A stretch of DNA of 35,158 nucleotides from Nitrococcus sp. GTDB lineage: Bacteria; Pseudomonadota; Gammaproteobacteria; Nitrococcales; Nitrococcaceae. Numbering within the stretch: position 1 is the first letter of the stretch; every line of letters begins with the position of its first letter. A program made the position numbers and the translations under genes. The notes below the pieces were generated by a model. It made no database searches and was not told the DNA's origin. It worked only from the letters and a program-made list of their open reading frames with translations. Location: the NCBI GenBank assembly GCA_030452265.1, contig JAKDMQ010000009.1, forward strand, positions 1-35,158, given 5' to 3'. Below, piece by piece: positions 26,328 to 34,669 of the stretch.

Positions 26328-28196
26328 TCAGGTTCCGGTGGCGGTGGGGTGTCGATCCGCCAGCGTCCGTTGGTCGCTGCGGGCCCCGGCACCGCGCAAC
26401 AGACGCCAGCCGAACAGGGTCGCCAGTACGCTGGCCAGCATGATGCTGACTTTGGCCTGGGCCAGGACGGTGGGGTCTGAAAACGCCGATTCGGCGATGA
26501 ATATCGACATTGTGAAGCCGATGCCGCACAAGGCGCCGGCGCCAGCCACTTGCCGCCAGTTGAATTCTTGTGGGCTATCGGCCAATCCGCTGCGCGCGGC
26601 CAGCCAGGCGCCGAGGGTGATACCCAGCGGCTTGCCGATGACAAGCCCCGCGAGTATGCCCAGGCTCAACGGCTGCAGTAGCTGCAACGTGTCGGCCGTC
26701 AATACGATGCCGGCATTCGCCAGTGCGAACAGCGGCAACACCAGATAGGACGACCACGGTTGCAGATTGCGTTCCAGGCGCTGCGCCGGTGACAAAAGCC
26801 GTTCGACCATTGATTCCAGGCCGCGCACGGCCGCCTGGTACTGACCCTGTTGGCGTTCCCCGCTCGGCGGCGTTTCCAGACTATGGAACAGCGCCATGCT
26901 CTGGCCGTGCAACTGCGCCGGCCGCGGACGGCTGCGAGTGGGCACGGTGAATCCGAGCAATACGCCGGCCAGGGTGGGATGCAGCCCGGAATGCAGGACC
27001 GCCGCCCACAGCCCGAGGCCGATCAATGCATAGGGCAACGCCCAGTACACCCGTGCCCGGTTCAACCCATAGGCAGCCGCGGTGAACACCGCCGCCAGCG
27101 CCAGGCCGGGCAGGCCGACGTGATCCGTGTAGACCAGGGCCAAAACGAGGATGGCGCCGACATCGTCAGCGATGGCAAGCGTTGCTACGAACACCCGCAA
27201 CGCCAGCGGCACGCGCGAGCCGAAGGCCGCCAACAAGCCGAGGGCAAACGCCGTATCGGTGGCTATCGGCACGCCCCAGCCTGCGGCGTGGGGGCCGCCC
27301 GCGTTGAACAGCCAGTAGATCAAGGCCGGTACGGCCATGCCACCGGCCGCGGCGGCCAGAGGCAGGATGGCGCGACGGGGTTTTCGCAACTCACCGGCGG
27401 TGACTTCGCGCTTGATTTCCAGCGAAACGACGAAAAAGAAGATAACAATCAGGCCGTCGTTGACCCATTCATGCAGCGTCAGTGGCAGAGCCCAGGGGCC
27501 GAGACGCAGGGCGAATTCGGTGTGCCACAGGGCAAAATAGCTTCCCTGCCAGGGCGAATTGGCCCATATCAGTGCGATGACGGCGGCGCCGAGCATCAAC
27601 GCCCCGGCCGAGACGGACAATCCGGCGAAATCTTGTGCCAATGCCCGGACCTTCCAACCCAGCGGTTGGCGCATCGCTTCCAGCACGGATTCCTCGTCCC
27701 AAGCCCCGTCGTAGCGGCGGCCGTTGATGAAGAACGACGGTGTTGCGTGCGCGCCGCTTTCGAAAGCGTGATCGAAATCCTCGCGCACCCGCGGCTCGTG
27801 GGTTCGTTCGTCGAGTTCGTGGGCGAACCGTTCGGTGTCCAGCCCCAGTTCCGCGGCGCCTGCCACCAGACTGTCGCGATCGAGCGCATCCTGATGGTCG
27901 AACAGATAATCGTGCATGTCCCAAAAGCGGTCCTGGTCCGCCGCGGCCTCCGCCGCCTCGGCCGCGCGTTGCGCATCCGGGTGCAGACGGGTATTGGGGA
28001 AATGCCGAAATACATAGCGCACCCGTCCGGACAAACGCCCGTCCAGCAGTGGCCCGATGACCGCGTGGGCGCGCCGGCAGTAAACGCATTGATAATCGCC
28101 ATATTCGACCAGGGTGACATCGGCACCGTCGGGACCTCGCACGTGGTCGCGGCCCGAATCGACCGGGGGTCGGAGTGGCGTCGGTTGCGTGGGCAC
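26328..28196 (-). CDS. nhaA: DsbA-like thioredoxin domain fused to NhaA Na+/H+ antiporter
   Basis: 622 aa from GTG 28196 (AGGA upstream). Residues 1-180 are a DsbA/thioredoxin-4 domain with the active site EYGDYQCVYCRRAH (C37, C40) and the cis-proline loop ATPSFFINGRRYDG (P153). Residues 185-605 are NhaA: LHEWVNDGLIVIFFFVVSLEIKRE, then ATDTAFALGLLAAFGSRVP and AIADDVGAILVLALV, which hold the ion-site aspartates (D314, D344, D345). No signal peptide precedes the thioredoxin domain; NhaA has its N-terminus inside, so the redox domain is probably cytoplasmic. Role: Na+ export and pH control, perhaps gated by thiol state (inference). Confidence 0.95.
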   Translation of the reverse strand: MPTQPTPLRPPVDSGRDHVRGPDGADVTLVEYGDYQCVYCRRAHAVIGPLLDGRLSGRVRYVFRHFPNTRLHPDAQRAAEAAEAAADQDRFWDMHDYLFDHQDALDRDSLVAGAAELGLDTERFAHELDERTHEPRVREDFDHAFESGAHATPSFFINGRRYDGAWDEESVLEAMRQPLGWKVRALAQDFAGLSVSAGALMLGAAVIALIWANSPWQGSYFALWHTEFALRLGPWALPLTLHEWVNDGLIVIFFFVVSLEIKREVTAGELRKPRRAILPLAAAAGGMAVPALIYWLFNAGGPHAAGWGVPIATDTAFALGLLAAFGSRVPLALRVFVATLAIADDVGAILVLALVYTDHVGLPGLALAAVFTAAAYGLNRARVYWALPYALIGLGLWAAVLHSGLHPTLAGVLLGFTVPTRSRPRPAQLHGQSMALFHSLETPPSGERQQGQYQAAVRGLESMVERLLSPAQRLERNLQPWSSYLVLPLFALANAGIVLTADTLQLLQPLSLGILAGLVIGKPLGITLGAWLAARSGLADSPQEFNWRQVAGAGALCGIGFTMSIFIAESAFSDPTVLAQAKVSIMLASVLATLFGWRLLRGAGARSDQRTLADRHPTATGT

Positions 28197-28388: not shown

Positions 28389-28574
28389 TTACTCAAGGTA
28401 GTCGGTGCCGCTGACAGGACGTCTGCCTTCCTCGAATTCCTCGATTATCCTGGCGTTGAACGCCGGAATGTCGTCGAAACGAACGGCCACCACCGCACGT
28501 ACTTGATGCGGTTGGCTGTTTGGCCTGGCATCAGGTTTATTGCTCCAGGTGAGCATCCATGGTGATGTCGGCAT
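28389..28574 (-). CDS. Possible small protein or gene remnant after osmC
   Basis: 61 codons open; the 5' part overlaps osmC, so a GTG near 28496 would be the more likely start (about 35 aa). The end reads VAVRFDDIPAFNARIIEEFE then EGRRPVSGTDYLE, which looks protein-like. I do not recognise the family. It could be the tail of a lost gene. Confidence 0.2.
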   Translation of the reverse strand: MPTSPWMLTWSNKPDARPNSQPHQVRAVVAVRFDDIPAFNARIIEEFEEGRRPVSGTDYLE

Positions 28575-28962
28575 TCAGTACTTTGGACACCGGGCAGCCG
28601 GCCTTGGCTTTCTCGGCCGCCTGCTGGAACGCTTGCTGATCGGTATCCGGCACCTTGGCGGACACGTCGAGGTGAACGGCCGTGATATCGAAGCCGCCCT
28701 CGGCCTGTTCGAGGCTGACGGTGGCCGTGGTGTCGATACGCTCAGGCGTGAGGCCGTCCTCGCCCAGAATCATGGATAGGGCCATGGAATAACAGCCGGC
28801 ATGGGCAGCGCCAATGAGCTCCTCGGGGTTGGTGCCCTTGCCGTTCTCGAATCGGGTGCCAAAGGAATACTGGGTGTCGGAGAGCACGCCACTGTCAGTG
28901 GAGATGACACCCTTGCCTTGTTTGAGATCGCCCTGCCATTGGGCGTTTGCATTGCGTTTCAT
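28537..28962 (-). CDS. osmC: OsmC family organic hydroperoxide reductase
   Basis: 141 aa, same length class as E. coli OsmC. The two catalytic cysteines are in [13 protein letters not shown] (C57) and [14 protein letters not shown] (C123), and the catalytic Arg is in [22 protein letters not shown] (R37, motif split). It reduces organic hydroperoxides with lipoyl or thiol electrons in the cytoplasm. The ATG has AGGAG at good spacing. It lies 54 bp after an SDR gene on the same strand. A partner lipoyl reductase could be the flavoprotein at 24838-26214 (inference). Confidence 0.95.
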
Positions 28963-29016: not shown

Positions 29017-29754
29017 TTACAGTTCCTGTTGAGTGGGGCGGATGATCAATTCGTTGATATCGACATCGCCGGGCTGCTCGATGGCGTATACGATTGCCTT
29101 GGCGATCGCGTCGGCGTCGATGGCATCCTCGTAGAGCTTGTTGGCCGATTCCGCCGCCTCTTCGTGGCTGATGTGGTCGGTCAACTCGGTGGCCACTGCG
29201 CCCGGGGAAATATTGGTGGAACGAATTTCACCATTGGATTCCAGGCGCAAGCCTTCGGACAACGCTTTCACCGCGAATTTGGTCGCGCAATAAACGGCGC
29301 CGCCGGGCATGACCTTGTGTCCGGCAACCGAAGACAGGTTGATGATGTGGCCGCTGTGCTGCTCGCGCATGGTGGGCAGTACCGCGGCGATGCCGTAGAG
29401 CACCCCCTTGAGATTCACGTCCACCATCTGCTCCCACTCGTCGACCTTGAGGGCGTCGAGCGGGGCCAGCGGCATCAGGCCGGCGTTGTTGAGCAGTACG
29501 TCGATGCGGCCGAAGGTATCCTTGGCGGCCTGCGCCAGCGCTTCGACCTGACTTCGATCGGTCACATCGGTGACGCGATAGGCCGCTTGACCGCCATCGA
29601 CTTCGATCGACGAAACGAGCTCCTTGAGTCGGGATTCGCGGCGGGCGCCCAGCATCAGCTTGGCGCCGCCTTCGGCCAATCGGCGGGCCGTAGCTTCACC
29701 CAGCCCGCTGCTGGCGCCGGTAATAACAACAACTTTGTCGGCAATTCCATTCAT
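29017..29754 (-). CDS. Short-chain dehydrogenase/reductase (classical SDR)
   Basis: 245 aa, complete classical SDR. It has the NAD(P) motif [14 protein letters not shown] (11-24), a basic residue pattern GARRE after beta-2 that favours NADPH, LLNNAG (87-92), and the active site Ser at INLSSVAG (S141-142) with YCATK (Y155, K159). The C-terminus [10 protein letters not shown] is typical. AGGAGA lies 6 nt before the ATG. The substrate is not known; enzymes like this reduce ketones or aldehydes. It lies between osmC and the TetR gene on the same strand. Confidence 0.95.
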
Positions 29755-29808
29755 TTCGATTCTCCTTGGTGAAAGTGATTATCAGGCGGCTCCTGCGTTC
29801 TTCGGTAC

Positions 29809-29833
29809 GCAATCCGGCTTTTCCCCGGATTGC
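29809..29833. repeat. Perfect 9-bp inverted repeat GCAATCCGG-N7-CCGGATTGC
   Basis: Arms at 29809-29817 and 29825-29833 around CTTTTCC. It lies between the end of the TetR gene (29997, minus) and the SDR start (29754, minus), so it could end the regulator transcript or sit in the SDR leader. There is no U-tract on the minus strand. Confidence 0.5.
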
Positions 29834-29996
29834 GAGCGGTTCAGGCAACCGTTCTGGACAGCACCGTGTCGTTCATGGCGCTGTGTAAATTTCTGCAGGG
29901 CAAGTGCGCTGCGTAAAGCGTAACGCTATCGAGAACCCGCGACTTCGCTTGAAGTGTCGGCCCGGATGATCATCGGATTGCGCTTCCAACTCGACA

Positions 29997-30596
29997 TCAA
30001 TTTCGACCATCCAGCATCCTGCTGAAAAACATGTCGGCAAACGCCGTCATCGGCGTAGTCGAGCGAGCGACCTTGGCGCGCAGGATGGCGCCTTCCCAAC
30101 CGTTGAGCAGAATTTCGGCCAGTTGTTCCACATCCTGGTCGGGGTCAATTTCATTCGCGGCACGGGCTTGCTCCAGGCAGTGCACGAAGCGCTGCGTCCA
30201 GCGGCTGAAGACCGTATCCAGACGGTCTCGAAAAACTTCCTTCTGCGCGGCGAGTTCCTGGCTCAGGTTGCCAATCAGACAACCTCGTCCGTAGTCATAC
30301 CGAACCATGTCCGCCAAGCCGGCGTCGAAGTAATTGCGGATACGCTGAAGCGGAGCCACCGTGGTGTCATTCAACAAGTTCTCGAGGCGGGCGTCATATT
30401 CGGCGTCGAAATCGTCGATCACCGCCAGCCCGAAATCCTCCTTGCTGGAAAAATAGTAGTAAAACGAGCCCTTGGGCACGCCAGCGGCGCTTAACACCGC
30501 GCTGACGCCGGTGTTGTTAAAGCCCTGCCGCGCGATGATTTCACTACCGGCGCGAATCAGTGCCTGACGTGTTTCGGTTCGTGTCATGCTTGACAT
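29997..30596 (-). CDS. TetR-family regulator, NemR-like, with Cys106 and Lys175
   Basis: 199 aa from ATG 30596, the same length I recall for E. coli NemR. The N-terminal helix-turn-helix reads ETRQALIRAGSEIIARQGF then VSAVLSAAGVPKGSFYYYFSSKEDFG. In the ligand domain GRGCLIGNLSQEL places a Cys at 106, and GAILRAKVARS places a Lys at 175. In NemR the Cys106-Lys175 pair is the reported electrophile/HOCl switch. This is strong evidence for a redox-sensing repressor; AcuR-type homologs are the main alternative. The ATG is 1 nt from an operator-like repeat, so it is likely autoregulated. It is divergent from the old yellow enzyme. Confidence 0.88.
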   Translation of the reverse strand: MSSMTRTETRQALIRAGSEIIARQGFNNTGVSAVLSAAGVPKGSFYYYFSSKEDFGLAVIDDFDAEYDARLENLLNDTTVAPLQRIRNYFDAGLADMVRYDYGRGCLIGNLSQELAAQKEVFRDRLDTVFSRWTQRFVHCLEQARAANEIDPDQDVEQLAEILLNGWEGAILRAKVARSTTPMTAFADMFFSRMLDGRN

Positions 30597-30617
30597 AATA
30601 GACCGGTCATCTATAGA
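30590..30617 (+). promoter_or_regulatory. Promoter of the old yellow enzyme operon
   Basis: TTGACA (30590-30595, perfect -35), 16-nt spacer, TATAGA (30612-30617, good -10). It points towards the plus-strand detoxification genes and would give a leader of about 270 nt. The spacer and the first bases of the -10 box are filled by an inverted repeat, a classic layout for TetR repression. Confidence 0.7.
30598..30614. promoter_or_regulatory. Putative TetR/NemR-like operator ATAGA-N7-TCTAT
   Basis: Inverted repeat ATAGACCGGTCATCTAT with an inner GACCGGTC palindrome. The left half, TAGACC, equals the half-site I recall for the E. coli NemR box. It lies between the -35 box and the 3' half of the -10 box of the plus-strand promoter and touches the regulator start codon, so one site could control both directions. 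Confidence 0.65.
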
Positions 30618-30640
30618 ATGCAAATGATGAACTTCCGGGT

Positions 30641-30868
30641 TTGCCTCAAGCGGCCGGCGCACCAAGATCGCGTCCATCCGAAACGCTTGGGGCGGCCCGC
30701 GTTCTGCAGCGACCGACTTGGTCGAGGACGGCCTATGAGCGCATTGCGATACAGCCTGATATCGACCAGCCGGAACCGGACGAAGACGACGCCATTGACG
30801 GCATCATCCAGGCGATGACGTACCAGCGTGAGATCGTCGCCGAACGAAAGCTGAACCGACTCTCTTAG
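30641..30868 (+). CDS. Possible leader ORF before the old yellow enzyme
   Basis: 75 codons from a TTG without ribosome-binding site, ending 24 bp before the old yellow enzyme ATG. The second half is acidic and protein-like (AIQPDIDQPEPDEDDAIDG, then IIQAMTYQREIVAERK). The family is unknown. It fills the otherwise long leader and may be a remnant or an unrecognised small protein. Confidence 0.25.
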   Translation: MPQAAGAPRSRPSETLGAARVLQRPTWSRTAYERIAIQPDIDQPEPDEDDAIDGIIQAMTYQREIVAERKLNRLS

Positions 30869-30892: not shown

Positions 30893-32056
30893 ATGTCTGA
30901 AAGTCAGCCCATTCCGAAAACCGATCGCTACCCGATGCTGTTTTCCCCCGTGCGTATCGATTCGCTGCGGCTGGCCAACCGCGCGGCCGTGTCGCCGATG
31001 ACGCGCACCAGCGCCAATCCCGACGGTAGGCCCACCGATCAGATGGTCGAATATTATCGTCGCTACGCCCGCGGCGGCTTTGGGCTGGTCATCACGGAAG
31101 GCACGTATACCGATACCGTTCATGCTCAGGGTTATTTCCGGCAACCCGGCATCGCAACCGATGCGCAGGGCGCCGCCTGGCAGCCGGTGGTCGATGCGGT
31201 TCACGCCGCGGGTGCCGCGATCGTGGTCCAGCTGATGCACGCCGGAGCCCAGGGCCAGCACGAGGGCACCGCGACCGTCGCGCCGTCGGCGGTGCGGCCC
31301 TACGGCAAGACCAATCCGATCTATCACGGCGACGGCAAGGAATACGGGGTGCCCGAGGCGCTCACGGAGACCGGCATCGTCGAGGCGATCGATGGCTTCG
31401 TCGCCGCGGCGAAGCGCGCGCTGCAGGCCGGGTTCGACGGCGTGGAGATCCACGGCGCCAACGGCTATCTGCTGGATGAATTCATCACCGATTATTACAA
31501 CCGGCGCGACGACGAATACGGCGGCGACATCGGCAACCGCGTGCGCATGGTCCGGCGGGTCATCCAGAGCGTGCGCGATGCGGTGGGGCGTGATTTTACC
31601 ATCGGCGTGCGGTTGTCCCAGACCAAGATCAACGATACCGAGCATCGCTGGAACGGCCCGGAAGACGCCGCCGTGATCTTCCGCGCCATGGCCGAAGCCG
31701 GGGCGAGTTATATCCACGTCACCGGCGCCGGCGCGGTCGATCCGGCGTTTTCCGACGACGGCCCAAGTCTGGTTCAACTGGCGGCCGAGCACGGCGGCGG
31801 CATCGCAGTAATCGCCAACGGCCGGCTGTACGACGCTAGCAAGGCCGAGGCGCAGTTCGATACAGGCGGCGCGAGCCTGGTCGCCGTCGCGCGCGGCGCC
31901 TTGGCCAATGCCGATTGGCCGCGGCGGATCGCGGCCGGCCGCGCTCAAAACGACTTTGACCCGGACTTGCTCCAGCCGCTGGCCACGCTGGACAACCAGG
32001 CCGATTGGGAAGACGGCCAGGCGAGTATCTTCGAGCCGCTGCACAAATCGTCGTAG
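30893..32056 (+). CDS. Old yellow enzyme family NAD(P)H:flavin oxidoreductase
   Basis: 387 aa TIM-barrel FMN enzyme. Motifs: LANRAAVSPMTRTSANPDG near 27-45, GLVITEGTYTD, VVQLMHAGAQGQHEG, the substrate-activating H-x-x-N in IHGANGYLLDEF (H187, N190), YYNRRDDEYGGDIGNRVR (201-218), and the phosphate-binding VIANGRLYD / VAVARGALANADWP near the C-terminus. AAGGAG precedes the ATG. These enzymes reduce activated C=C bonds of electrophiles such as quinones, enals and maleimides (NemA type). It stands divergent from a NemR-like regulator, which strongly suggests induction by electrophiles. Confidence 0.95.
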   Translation: MSESQPIPKTDRYPMLFSPVRIDSLRLANRAAVSPMTRTSANPDGRPTDQMVEYYRRYARGGFGLVITEGTYTDTVHAQGYFRQPGIATDAQGAAWQPVVDAVHAAGAAIVVQLMHAGAQGQHEGTATVAPSAVRPYGKTNPIYHGDGKEYGVPEALTETGIVEAIDGFVAAAKRALQAGFDGVEIHGANGYLLDEFITDYYNRRDDEYGGDIGNRVRMVRRVIQSVRDAVGRDFTIGVRLSQTKINDTEHRWNGPEDAAVIFRAMAEAGASYIHVTGAGAVDPAFSDDGPSLVQLAAEHGGGIAVIANGRLYDASKAEAQFDTGGASLVAVARGALANADWPRRIAAGRAQNDFDPDLLQPLATLDNQADWEDGQASIFEPLHKSS

Positions 32057-32186: not shown

Positions 32187-33335
32187 ATGCGTGCAGTTGT
32201 CTACAAGGGCCCCCACCAAGTCCAGGTCGAAAACGTACCCGATGCCAAGCTCGAACATCCCACCGATGTCGTGGTGCGCATTACCAGCACCAATATCTGC
32301 GGCTCGGACCTGCATATGTATCAGGGCCGCACCGATTTCGAGGAAGGCCGGATCATCGGCCACGAGAATCTCGGTGAGGTGGTCGAGGTCGGCAAGGGCG
32401 TACATAAAGTCCACAAGGGCGATCGCGTGTGCCTGCCGTTCAATATCGGCTGCGGTTTCTGCAAGAACTGCGAGGCGGGCAAGACCGCGTTCTGTCTCGA
32501 AGCCAATCCGGGTTTCGCGGGCGCCGCCTACGGCTACGCCAAGATGGGCCCCTACAGCGGCGGCCAGGCCGAATATCTGCGCGTACCCTACGCCGACTTC
32601 AATTGCCTGGTCCTGCCGGAAGACGCGGCCGAGAAAGAAAACGACTATGTGATGCTCACCGACATCTTCCCCACCGGCTGGCACGCCACCGAGCTGGCCG
32701 GTATGCGCGACGGGGATTCGGTGCTGGTCTGGGGCGACGGACCGGTCGGCATCATGGCGGCATACTCGGCGGTGCTGCGCGATGCCCGCCAGGTGATGAT
32801 CGTCGGCCACCACGCCGATCGCTTAAAGCTGGCCGAGGATTTTGGCGCCATCACGATCAATGAAAGCGATGTCGACCCCCAGGAGGCGATCGCCGAACAT
32901 ACACAAGGTGAAGGCGCGGACCGTGCCTGCGAGTGCGTGGGCTATCAGGCGCACAACCAGGACGGGGAAGAACAGCCCAATCTGGTGATGAACAACCTGG
33001 TGAAGGCGGTCCGGCCGACCGGCGCCATCGGCGTGGTCGGCCTGTTCGTGCCCGAGGACCCGGGCGCGGCTAGCGAGATGAATCAGCGCGGCCAGATCGC
33101 GTTCGACATGGGTTTGTTTTTTGAAAAAGGGCAGCGAATGGCCACCGGGCAGGCCGACGTCAAGGCCTACAACCGACAACTGGCCGATCTGGTCTTTCAC
33201 GACAAGGCGCAACCGTCGTTTCTGCTGTCGCACGAGTTGACGCTGGACGAAGCGCCCGATGCCTACGAGAACTTCGACAAGCGCGCCGAAGGCTGGACCA
33301 AGGTGGTCTTGAAGCCCGGCAAGAATGGCGGGTGA
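32187..33335 (+). CDS. Zinc-dependent alcohol dehydrogenase, glutathione-independent formaldehyde dehydrogenase-like
   Basis: 382 aa from ATG 32187, which has AGGAG 7 nt upstream; the longer frame to 32142 lacks one. It is a medium-chain dehydrogenase: catalytic zinc ligands in NICGSDLHMYQGR (C38) and IIGHENLGEVVEVG (H59, E60), structural zinc cysteines in CGFCKNCEAGKTAFC (C89, C92, C95, C103), GGAYGY-like AAYGYAKMGPYSGGQAEYL, SDIFPTG-like DIFPTGWHATELAG, and the nucleotide fold WGDGPVGIMAA. These blocks match Pseudomonas putida formaldehyde dehydrogenase, which works without glutathione and keeps NAD bound. It likely oxidises formaldehyde or other aldehydes. Confidence 0.92.
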   Translation: MRAVVYKGPHQVQVENVPDAKLEHPTDVVVRITSTNICGSDLHMYQGRTDFEEGRIIGHENLGEVVEVGKGVHKVHKGDRVCLPFNIGCGFCKNCEAGKTAFCLEANPGFAGAAYGYAKMGPYSGGQAEYLRVPYADFNCLVLPEDAAEKENDYVMLTDIFPTGWHATELAGMRDGDSVLVWGDGPVGIMAAYSAVLRDARQVMIVGHHADRLKLAEDFGAITINESDVDPQEAIAEHTQGEGADRACECVGYQAHNQDGEEQPNLVMNNLVKAVRPTGAIGVVGLFVPEDPGAASEMNQRGQIAFDMGLFFEKGQRMATGQADVKAYNRQLADLVFHDKAQPSFLLSHELTLDEAPDAYENFDKRAEGWTKVVLKPGKNGG

Positions 33336-33877: not shown

Positions 33878-34669
33878 ATGGACTTGCAACTCGGCGATAA
33901 AACCGCATTGGTCACCGGCTCGACCGGAGGCATCGGCTTCGCCATCGCCCAGGGCCTGGCCGCAGAAGGCGCGGCGGTTATTGTGAACGGGCGTGATGAA
34001 CAACGGGTCAAGGATGCGATTGAGCGAATTAAAAGCAAGCATCCCAACGCCGAAGTCGGGGGCATGCATGCGGACCTTGCAAGCCGTGAAGGCGTAGAAC
34101 AACTTACGGACCACGCGCGCAAAACCGACATCCTGGTCAACAACGTCGGTATTTTTGAGCCCAGGGAATTTCTCCAGATCGAAGACGACGACTGGCAACG
34201 CTTTTTCGACGCCAACGTAATGAGCGCCGTACGGCTGTCGCGCCATTACCTGCCCGGCATGCTCGAACGCGGCTGGGGGCGCCTGCTGTTCATATCCAGC
34301 GAGTCCGGCATCCATATTCCCGCGGAGATGGTGCATTACGGCTTCACCAAGGCGGCGCTGCTCGCGGTGTCGCGCGGCATTGCGGAAAGCATACCCGGCA
34401 CCGGCGTAACCGCGAACGCCATTTTGCCGGGGCCTACGCGCTCGGAAGGCGTCAGTGAAATGCTGGCCGACATGGCCGACGAAGGCCAGTCGCAAGACAG
34501 CGTGGAGCAGGCGTTTATCGAAAACGAGCGTCCCAGTTCACTGATCAAGCGGCTGGCAACGCCCGAAGAGGTCGCCAACCTGGTGGTGTATATGGCCAGC
34601 CCGCTGTCGTCGGCCACCACCGGCGCCCCGATGCGCGTGGATGGCGGCGTTGTCCGCGCGATGACCTGA
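33878..34669 (+). CDS. Short-chain dehydrogenase/reductase
   Basis: 263 aa classical SDR. NAD(P)-binding motif LVTGSTGGIGFAIAQ (11-25), VNGRDE, ILVNNVG (85-91, with Val in place of the usual Ala), active site Ser in FISSESG (S140-141) and YGFTK (Y154, K158). The C-terminal motif MRVDGGVVR replaces the common VDGG end. NAILPGPTRSEG fits a family often annotated as 3-oxoacyl reductase-like, but the substrate is unknown. GGAG precedes the ATG. It is 24 bp before the next gene, so they are co-transcribed. Confidence 0.94.
   Translation: MDLQLGDKTALVTGSTGGIGFAIAQGLAAEGAAVIVNGRDEQRVKDAIERIKSKHPNAEVGGMHADLASREGVEQLTDHARKTDILVNNVGIFEPREFLQIEDDDWQRFFDANVMSAVRLSRHYLPGMLERGWGRLLFISSESGIHIPAEMVHYGFTKAALLAVSRGIAESIPGTGVTANAILPGPTRSEGVSEMLADMADEGQSQDSVEQAFIENERPSSLIKRLATPEEVANLVVYMASPLSSATTGAPMRVDGGVVRAMT

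Follow-up and report, generated by a model that had tools for sequence, protein, structure and literature searches.

Among described regulators, AcuR of R. sphaeroides (acuR-acuI-dddL; NF051457; PDB 3bru by sequence similarity) is the closest named model for the regulator studied here, which also resembles NemR of E. coli (nemRA-gloA; PDB 4yze). Published work on NemR ties Cys106 to bleach and Cys21 and Cys116 to electrophiles. In Hypocrates, a NemR-based sensor, the response to NaOCl survives replacement of the Lys by Ala, and a sulfenamide was not detected (PMC8748444). AcuR is reported to be leaderless, with its ATG just after the -10 box. Its operator in R. sphaeroides is a repeat similar to the one described below, with a published spacing of n6 between GAC and GTC, and base changes in it lead to constitutive expression (PMC3017554). 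The acrylate residues of Halomonas AcuR are Y82, K86, R120, and W183, whereas its DMSP residues include K86, F105, and F179. In AltR, another distant homolog, which comes from the alt cluster for thiosulfinate tolerance of Pantoea ananatis, the conserved Cys100 is required, and thiosulfinates act as inducers but NEM and diamide do not (PMC13178969). Induction requires a conserved Cys in both NemR and AltR. One Cys and one operator shape are common to regulators that have different inducers (bleach and electrophiles for NemR, acrylate and DMSP for AcuR), and annotation of a bleach sensor from a Cys/Lys pair is therefore unsafe.

Family placement of the regulator

The window (the whole 35,158-nt stretch of Nitrococcus sp. 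DNA that was analyzed) belongs to a 3.68-Mb draft genome of 419 contigs with an estimated contamination of 5.9%, which leaves the local reading unaffected. It carries on its minus strand a regulator gene whose open reading frame, counted from the first ATG, runs from 30596 (the annotated start) to 29997 and encodes 199 amino acids. The TetR_N (48.5 bits) and TetR_C_13 (91.4 bits) domains of the product both pass the Pfam gathering thresholds, which are 24 and 27. Like NemR, the regulator belongs to the TetR_C_13 branch, and the two proteins align without gaps. In an alignment of 109 sequences, C106 (within RGCLIGNLSQEL) and K175 (within RAKVARS), both in the 199-residue numbering, occupy the columns of NemR C106 and K175, confirming what the initial annotation had proposed for these residues. 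The pocket positions R(-36), Y(-17), L(+57), and W(+61), given as offsets from the Cys, are also identical in the two proteins. In other respects the proteins differ. They share 31 to 33% identity, and the columns of NemR C21 and C116 hold I and A in the window regulator, whose only cysteines are C106 and C140.

In a maximum-likelihood tree of 80 proteins, built with a quick method and containing several long branches, the NemR clade (EcNemR, L017, and L162; support, 99) leaves out the window regulator, as does the acuI-linked clade (support, 100). The regulator is instead sister to a Salinisphaera halophila protein (L033; support, 93; 68% identical), and the pair falls within a mixed set from Halomonadaceae, Halospina, Marinobacter, Geobacteraceae, and cyanobacteria (support, 81). 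Judged by sequence, the regulator belongs to the TetR branch that includes NemR and AcuR, although it falls outside both of these clades. It is a cousin of the NemR bleach sensor, not NemR itself, and adds one new member to a known regulator type. The earlier label "NemR-like" is consequently apt for the broad branch, the Cys and Lys columns, and the family operator, whereas a functional assignment to NemR does not hold, given the identity of 31 to 33%, the position outside the clade, and the lack of C21 and C116.

The best-scoring NCBIfam model is AcuR (224 bits, under the cutoff of 247) and the closest solved structure is 3bru. These matches, with a similar operator and leaderless layout, could point to an AcuR-type regulator that binds a small unsaturated acid (acrylate) or DMSP noncovalently, a reading that we consider very improbable. 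The score lies under the family cutoff, the protein is outside the acuI-linked clade, and no acuI gene adjoins it. When AcuR pocket positions were located by counting from the conserved Cys, the Halomonas residues Y82, K86, F105, F179, and W180 were found to be replaced, so that the acrylate residues Y82 and K86 have become Glu and Arg and the DMSP residues K86, F105, and F179 are lost; R120 and W183 are kept. The acrylate/DMSP pocket residues are conserved in those acuI-linked Halomonas homologs that were checked. An identification as AcuR itself was rejected on the same grounds. By analogy with AcuR, the conserved Cys could still serve a ligand pocket rather than a covalent switch.

The conserved Cys is found in 107 of the 109 aligned homologs, AcuR-type regulators among them, and two homologs lack it. 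The Lys column holds K in 72 homologs and R in 32. It is K in 32 of 33 relatives without acuI (L033 to L068), compared with 23 K and 19 R in the 42 acuI-linked regulators, which makes the Cys a trait of the family and the Lys a trait of the group without acuI. Because the Cys is nearly universal and is common to the acuI-linked AcuR-type proteins as well, it is no predictor of bleach sensing.

The initial annotation had predicted a locus inducible by bleach or electrophiles. A NemR-type sensor, in which a Cys106-Lys175 switch makes the OYE (old yellow enzyme) operon bleach inducible, would accord with the two residues in the NemR columns, with the Lys of nearly all close relatives, and with the four shared pocket positions. 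It is nonetheless unlikely, since the protein is distant from NemR and outside its clade, the Cys is widespread, Hypocrates, built on NemR, works without the Lys, and AltR, which has a conserved Cys100, ignores NEM and diamide. The prediction of a bleach switch is not sustained by this evidence, and bleach induction of the locus is a guess.

An extra Cys lies four residues ahead of the conserved one (CxxGC) in 26 of the 33 relatives without acuI. At this position 40 of the 42 acuI-linked regulators have Phe or Tyr, and the window regulator has Tyr. The CxxGC pair is a possible two-cysteine switch in those relatives, absent from the window protein.

The operator and two overlapping promoters

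The inverted repeat ATAGA-N7-TCTAT described in the initial annotation is present at 30598 to 30614 (ATAGA, 30598 to 30602; TCTAT, 30610 to 30614) and lies 1 nt from the annotated regulator start. Chance does not account for it, since it contains a 15-bp core operator, TAGATGACCGGTCTA (30599 to 30613, minus strand), which fits the family operator (consensus TAGACGAYYGGTCTA) at 9 of 10 scored positions, as do 0.02% of shuffles. This is the sole site in the 3.68-Mb genome with at most one mismatch to TAGAYNANYGGTCTA; no second operator was found at that threshold. The family box is common to the upstream stretches of the homologs, where it lies over the regulator -10 box. A box matching at least 9 of the 10 positions was found in 33 of 42 acuI-linked and 26 of 38 other homologs, whereas shuffling of the upstream regions yields one in 0.05% and 0.5% of cases, respectively. 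The operator thus has more behind it than the initial annotation could draw on. The GAC-GTC spacing is n5 in the window and in the fetched homologs, so n5 is the family norm and no defect. NemR also has a repeat of the TAGAC...GTCTA type ahead of its gene, although the E. coli repeat, TAGACCGACTGGTCTA, is 1 bp longer than that of the window. AltR uses a different operator, CAATCTAC-N6-GTAGATTG. Three Methylophaga homologs (L036, L038, and L042) carry the operator in two tandem copies upstream of the regulator.

The predicted promoter of the regulator (30595 to 30624, minus strand) has the -10 box TATTAT at 30595 to 30600 and a weak -35 box, either TTTGCA at 30619 to 30624 (N18) or TTGCAT at 30618 to 30623 (N17). 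The -10 box is separated by 7 nt from the ATG of Met4 (TATTAT-GTCAAGC-ATG), exactly as in S. halophila. Spacings of 6 to 8 nt occur in 31 of the 33 box-bearing acuI-linked homologs and in 18 other homologs. Judged from this layout, the window shares the AcuR trait of a leaderless gene with a TAGAC-type repeat over its -10 box. Since the -10 box lies exactly 7 nt upstream of Met4, as in the leaderless AcuR family, Met4 (30587), three codons past the annotated ATG, is probably the start, giving a gene at 29997 to 30587 and a protein of 196 amino acids. The open reading frame behind the 199-residue protein reported earlier is thus retained, but its start is probably misplaced; numbering from Met4 would shift by three, to C103 and K172, with the equivalence to the NemR columns unaffected.

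The regulator gene stands head to head with an OYE gene (Oxidored_FMN; 30893 to 32056, plus strand), which has a leader of about 270 nt. The promoter facing this gene (30590 to 30619, plus strand) has the -35 box TTGACA at 30590 to 30595 and a -10 box that may be read as TAGAAT at 30614 to 30619 (N18) or as TATAGA at 30612 to 30617 (N16). The N16 version, as first annotated, is present and scores 10/12, although the N18 version scores 11/12; among dinucleotide shuffles of the OYE leader, sites of at least 11/12 and at least 10/12 occur in 0.07% and 2.0%, respectively. The operator sits in the spacer of this promoter, and the promoter of the regulator overlaps on the opposite strand. The earlier placement of the operator within the OYE promoter is thus correct as to location. 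The promoter overlap is the one feature that suggests control of the OYE gene, and the operator, judged by where it is conserved, appears to serve primarily the regulator's own promoter. It was absent from all 36 fetched loci of OYE homologs, which lend no comparative support to control of the divergent OYE.

The repressor might then govern its own transcript and the short-chain dehydrogenase gene SDR1 only, the OYE genes being constitutive or otherwise controlled and the overlap accidental. The conservation of the operator at the regulator's own promoter agrees with this explanation, as does the fact that the window OYE is not the NemA-type partner found in relatives and has homologs without the operator. 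The long OYE leader, with its unplaced reading-frame remnant (30716 to 30865, plus strand, ending in AERKLNRLS*; no homolog in 58 other genomes or in plasmids), also fits. An 11/12 sigma-70-like promoter that holds the operator in its spacer, matched in so few shuffles, speaks against an accidental overlap, and we regard this explanation as somewhat unlikely.

Neighboring genes and a proposed switch

On the OYE side, the plus strand encodes a Zn-dependent dehydrogenase (32187 to 33335) related to glutathione-independent formaldehyde dehydrogenase (FDH) but below the NCBIfam cutoff, an HbpS/GlcG-like protein (PF03928; 33419 to 33829), and a second short-chain dehydrogenase, SDR2 (33878 to 34669). 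The window OYE shares 34% identity with NemA and 38% with the OYE in the operon of S. halophila, and it belongs to a subfamily other than that of NemA. The locus resembles nemRA-gloA in its OYE neighborhood but differs in gene order; the window regulator is also probably leaderless, and its adjacent OYE is divergent rather than a nemA-type gene of the same operon. Elsewhere in the genome, a contig-end fragment (G000:C66:182-301) is 70% identical to the final 40 residues of the window OYE and is possibly, by this match, a second OYE.

Beyond the regulator and in the same direction lie SDR1 (29017 to 29754, minus strand), an OsmC-family peroxiredoxin (28537 to 28962, minus strand), a DsbA-like/NhaA fusion, a pyridine nucleotide-disulfide oxidoreductase, and a glyoxalase-fold (VOC) protein. 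The OsmC gene is 54 bp downstream of SDR1 and probably shares its transcript. Cotranscription of the regulator and SDR1 is not certain, because their 242-bp gap holds a perfect 10-bp inverted repeat with a 7-nt loop (29808 to 29834) and no T-run; this hairpin was considered as a repeat element and rejected, being single copy in the genome. In the fusion protein (26328 to 28196, minus strand), a DsbA/thioredoxin-like domain is joined to the N terminus of a complete NhaA Na+/H+ antiporter. The DsbA part has a counterpart, 47% identical, that is encoded as a protein of its own in the regulator operon of S. halophila.

The recurrent partner of the regulator is SDR1, a conserved neighbor (72 to 83% identical) that relatives combine with an OYE of the NemA type. 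The uncharacterized S. halophila locus, with the order REG-Trx-OYE-SDR1-ABM-AhpC/TSA-DsbA, has an SDR1 83% identical to that of the window, the same operator, and the same 7-nt leaderless spacing but differs in placing Trx and a NemA-type OYE (49%) between the regulator and SDR1. Its contig begins 26 bp upstream of the regulator, so a divergent gene would be out of view. SDR1 is 72 to 75% identical in Halospina, Pleurocapsales, Leptolyngbya, Waterburya, and Pleurocapsa, each with a NemA-type OYE, the order being REG-OYE-SDR1 in Halospina and REG-SDR1-OYE in the cyanobacteria. A NemR-type regulator of Pantoea agglomerans heads the same trio, with the OYE first and the SDR after it. Marinobacter has REG-Trx, and Methylophaga has the regulator beside a quinone oxidoreductase-like gene (functions read from sequence by eye). 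In two members of the Geobacteraceae an acuI-like gene adjoins the regulator. The company of OYE, SDR, thioredoxin, peroxiredoxin, and quinone oxidoreductase genes in relatives argues for defense against reactive chemicals but names no chemical.

The alt cluster likewise contains members of the OYE, SDR, DsbA, thioredoxin, disulfide reductase, and OsmC families, and AltR is an autorepressor with one essential conserved Cys. A homologous alt (thiosulfinate) cluster was nevertheless rejected: its enzymes are 21 to 33% identical to those of the window, and AltR gave no blastp match to the window regulator at an E value of 1e-4, so that the kinds of genes are alike and no more.

The gene content, the alignment, the conservation and uniqueness of the operator, the promoter overlap, and the leaderless spacing are observed features, and from them we infer repression, Cys modification, a class of inducers, regulation of the OYE transcript, and the operon extent. 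The reading that we favor, with reasonable though limited confidence, is a local autorepressor that governs a divergent pair of oxidoreductase transcripts and depends on its conserved Cys, where reaction with an electrophile or oxidant would free it. A TetR_C_13 homodimer would occupy the single operator and so cover both the regulator's leaderless promoter and the spacer of the OYE-FDH-HbpS-SDR2 promoter, silencing both. A thiol-reactive electrophile or oxidant would modify the Cys in the NemR C106 column and take the protein off the DNA. Induction would follow for the regulator-SDR1(-OsmC) transcript and probably for that of the OYE gene, and toxic carbonyls, quinones, or peroxides would be reduced. 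The locus is in this respect a compact divergent switch, open to testing, with two oxidoreductase transcripts that a single dimer could shut down.

More tentatively, the regulator may represent an uncharacterized set of repressors that control OYE, SDR, thioredoxin, and quinone reductase genes and perhaps sense an unnamed electrophile. As an equally tentative part of this suggestion, members of the set would retain the operator of AcuR, and many of them its leaderless start as well, but would have no acuI partner and, where this was checked, no acrylate pocket. Its hosts are Gammaproteobacteria, cyanobacteria, Planctomycetota, Melainabacteria, and Geobacteraceae. On a Pantoea agglomerans plasmid from diseased onion (L162, 7284 to 10522), a NemR-type regulator, an alkene reductase, and an SDR lie in a row, and this trio is distinct from the P. 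ananatis alt cluster.
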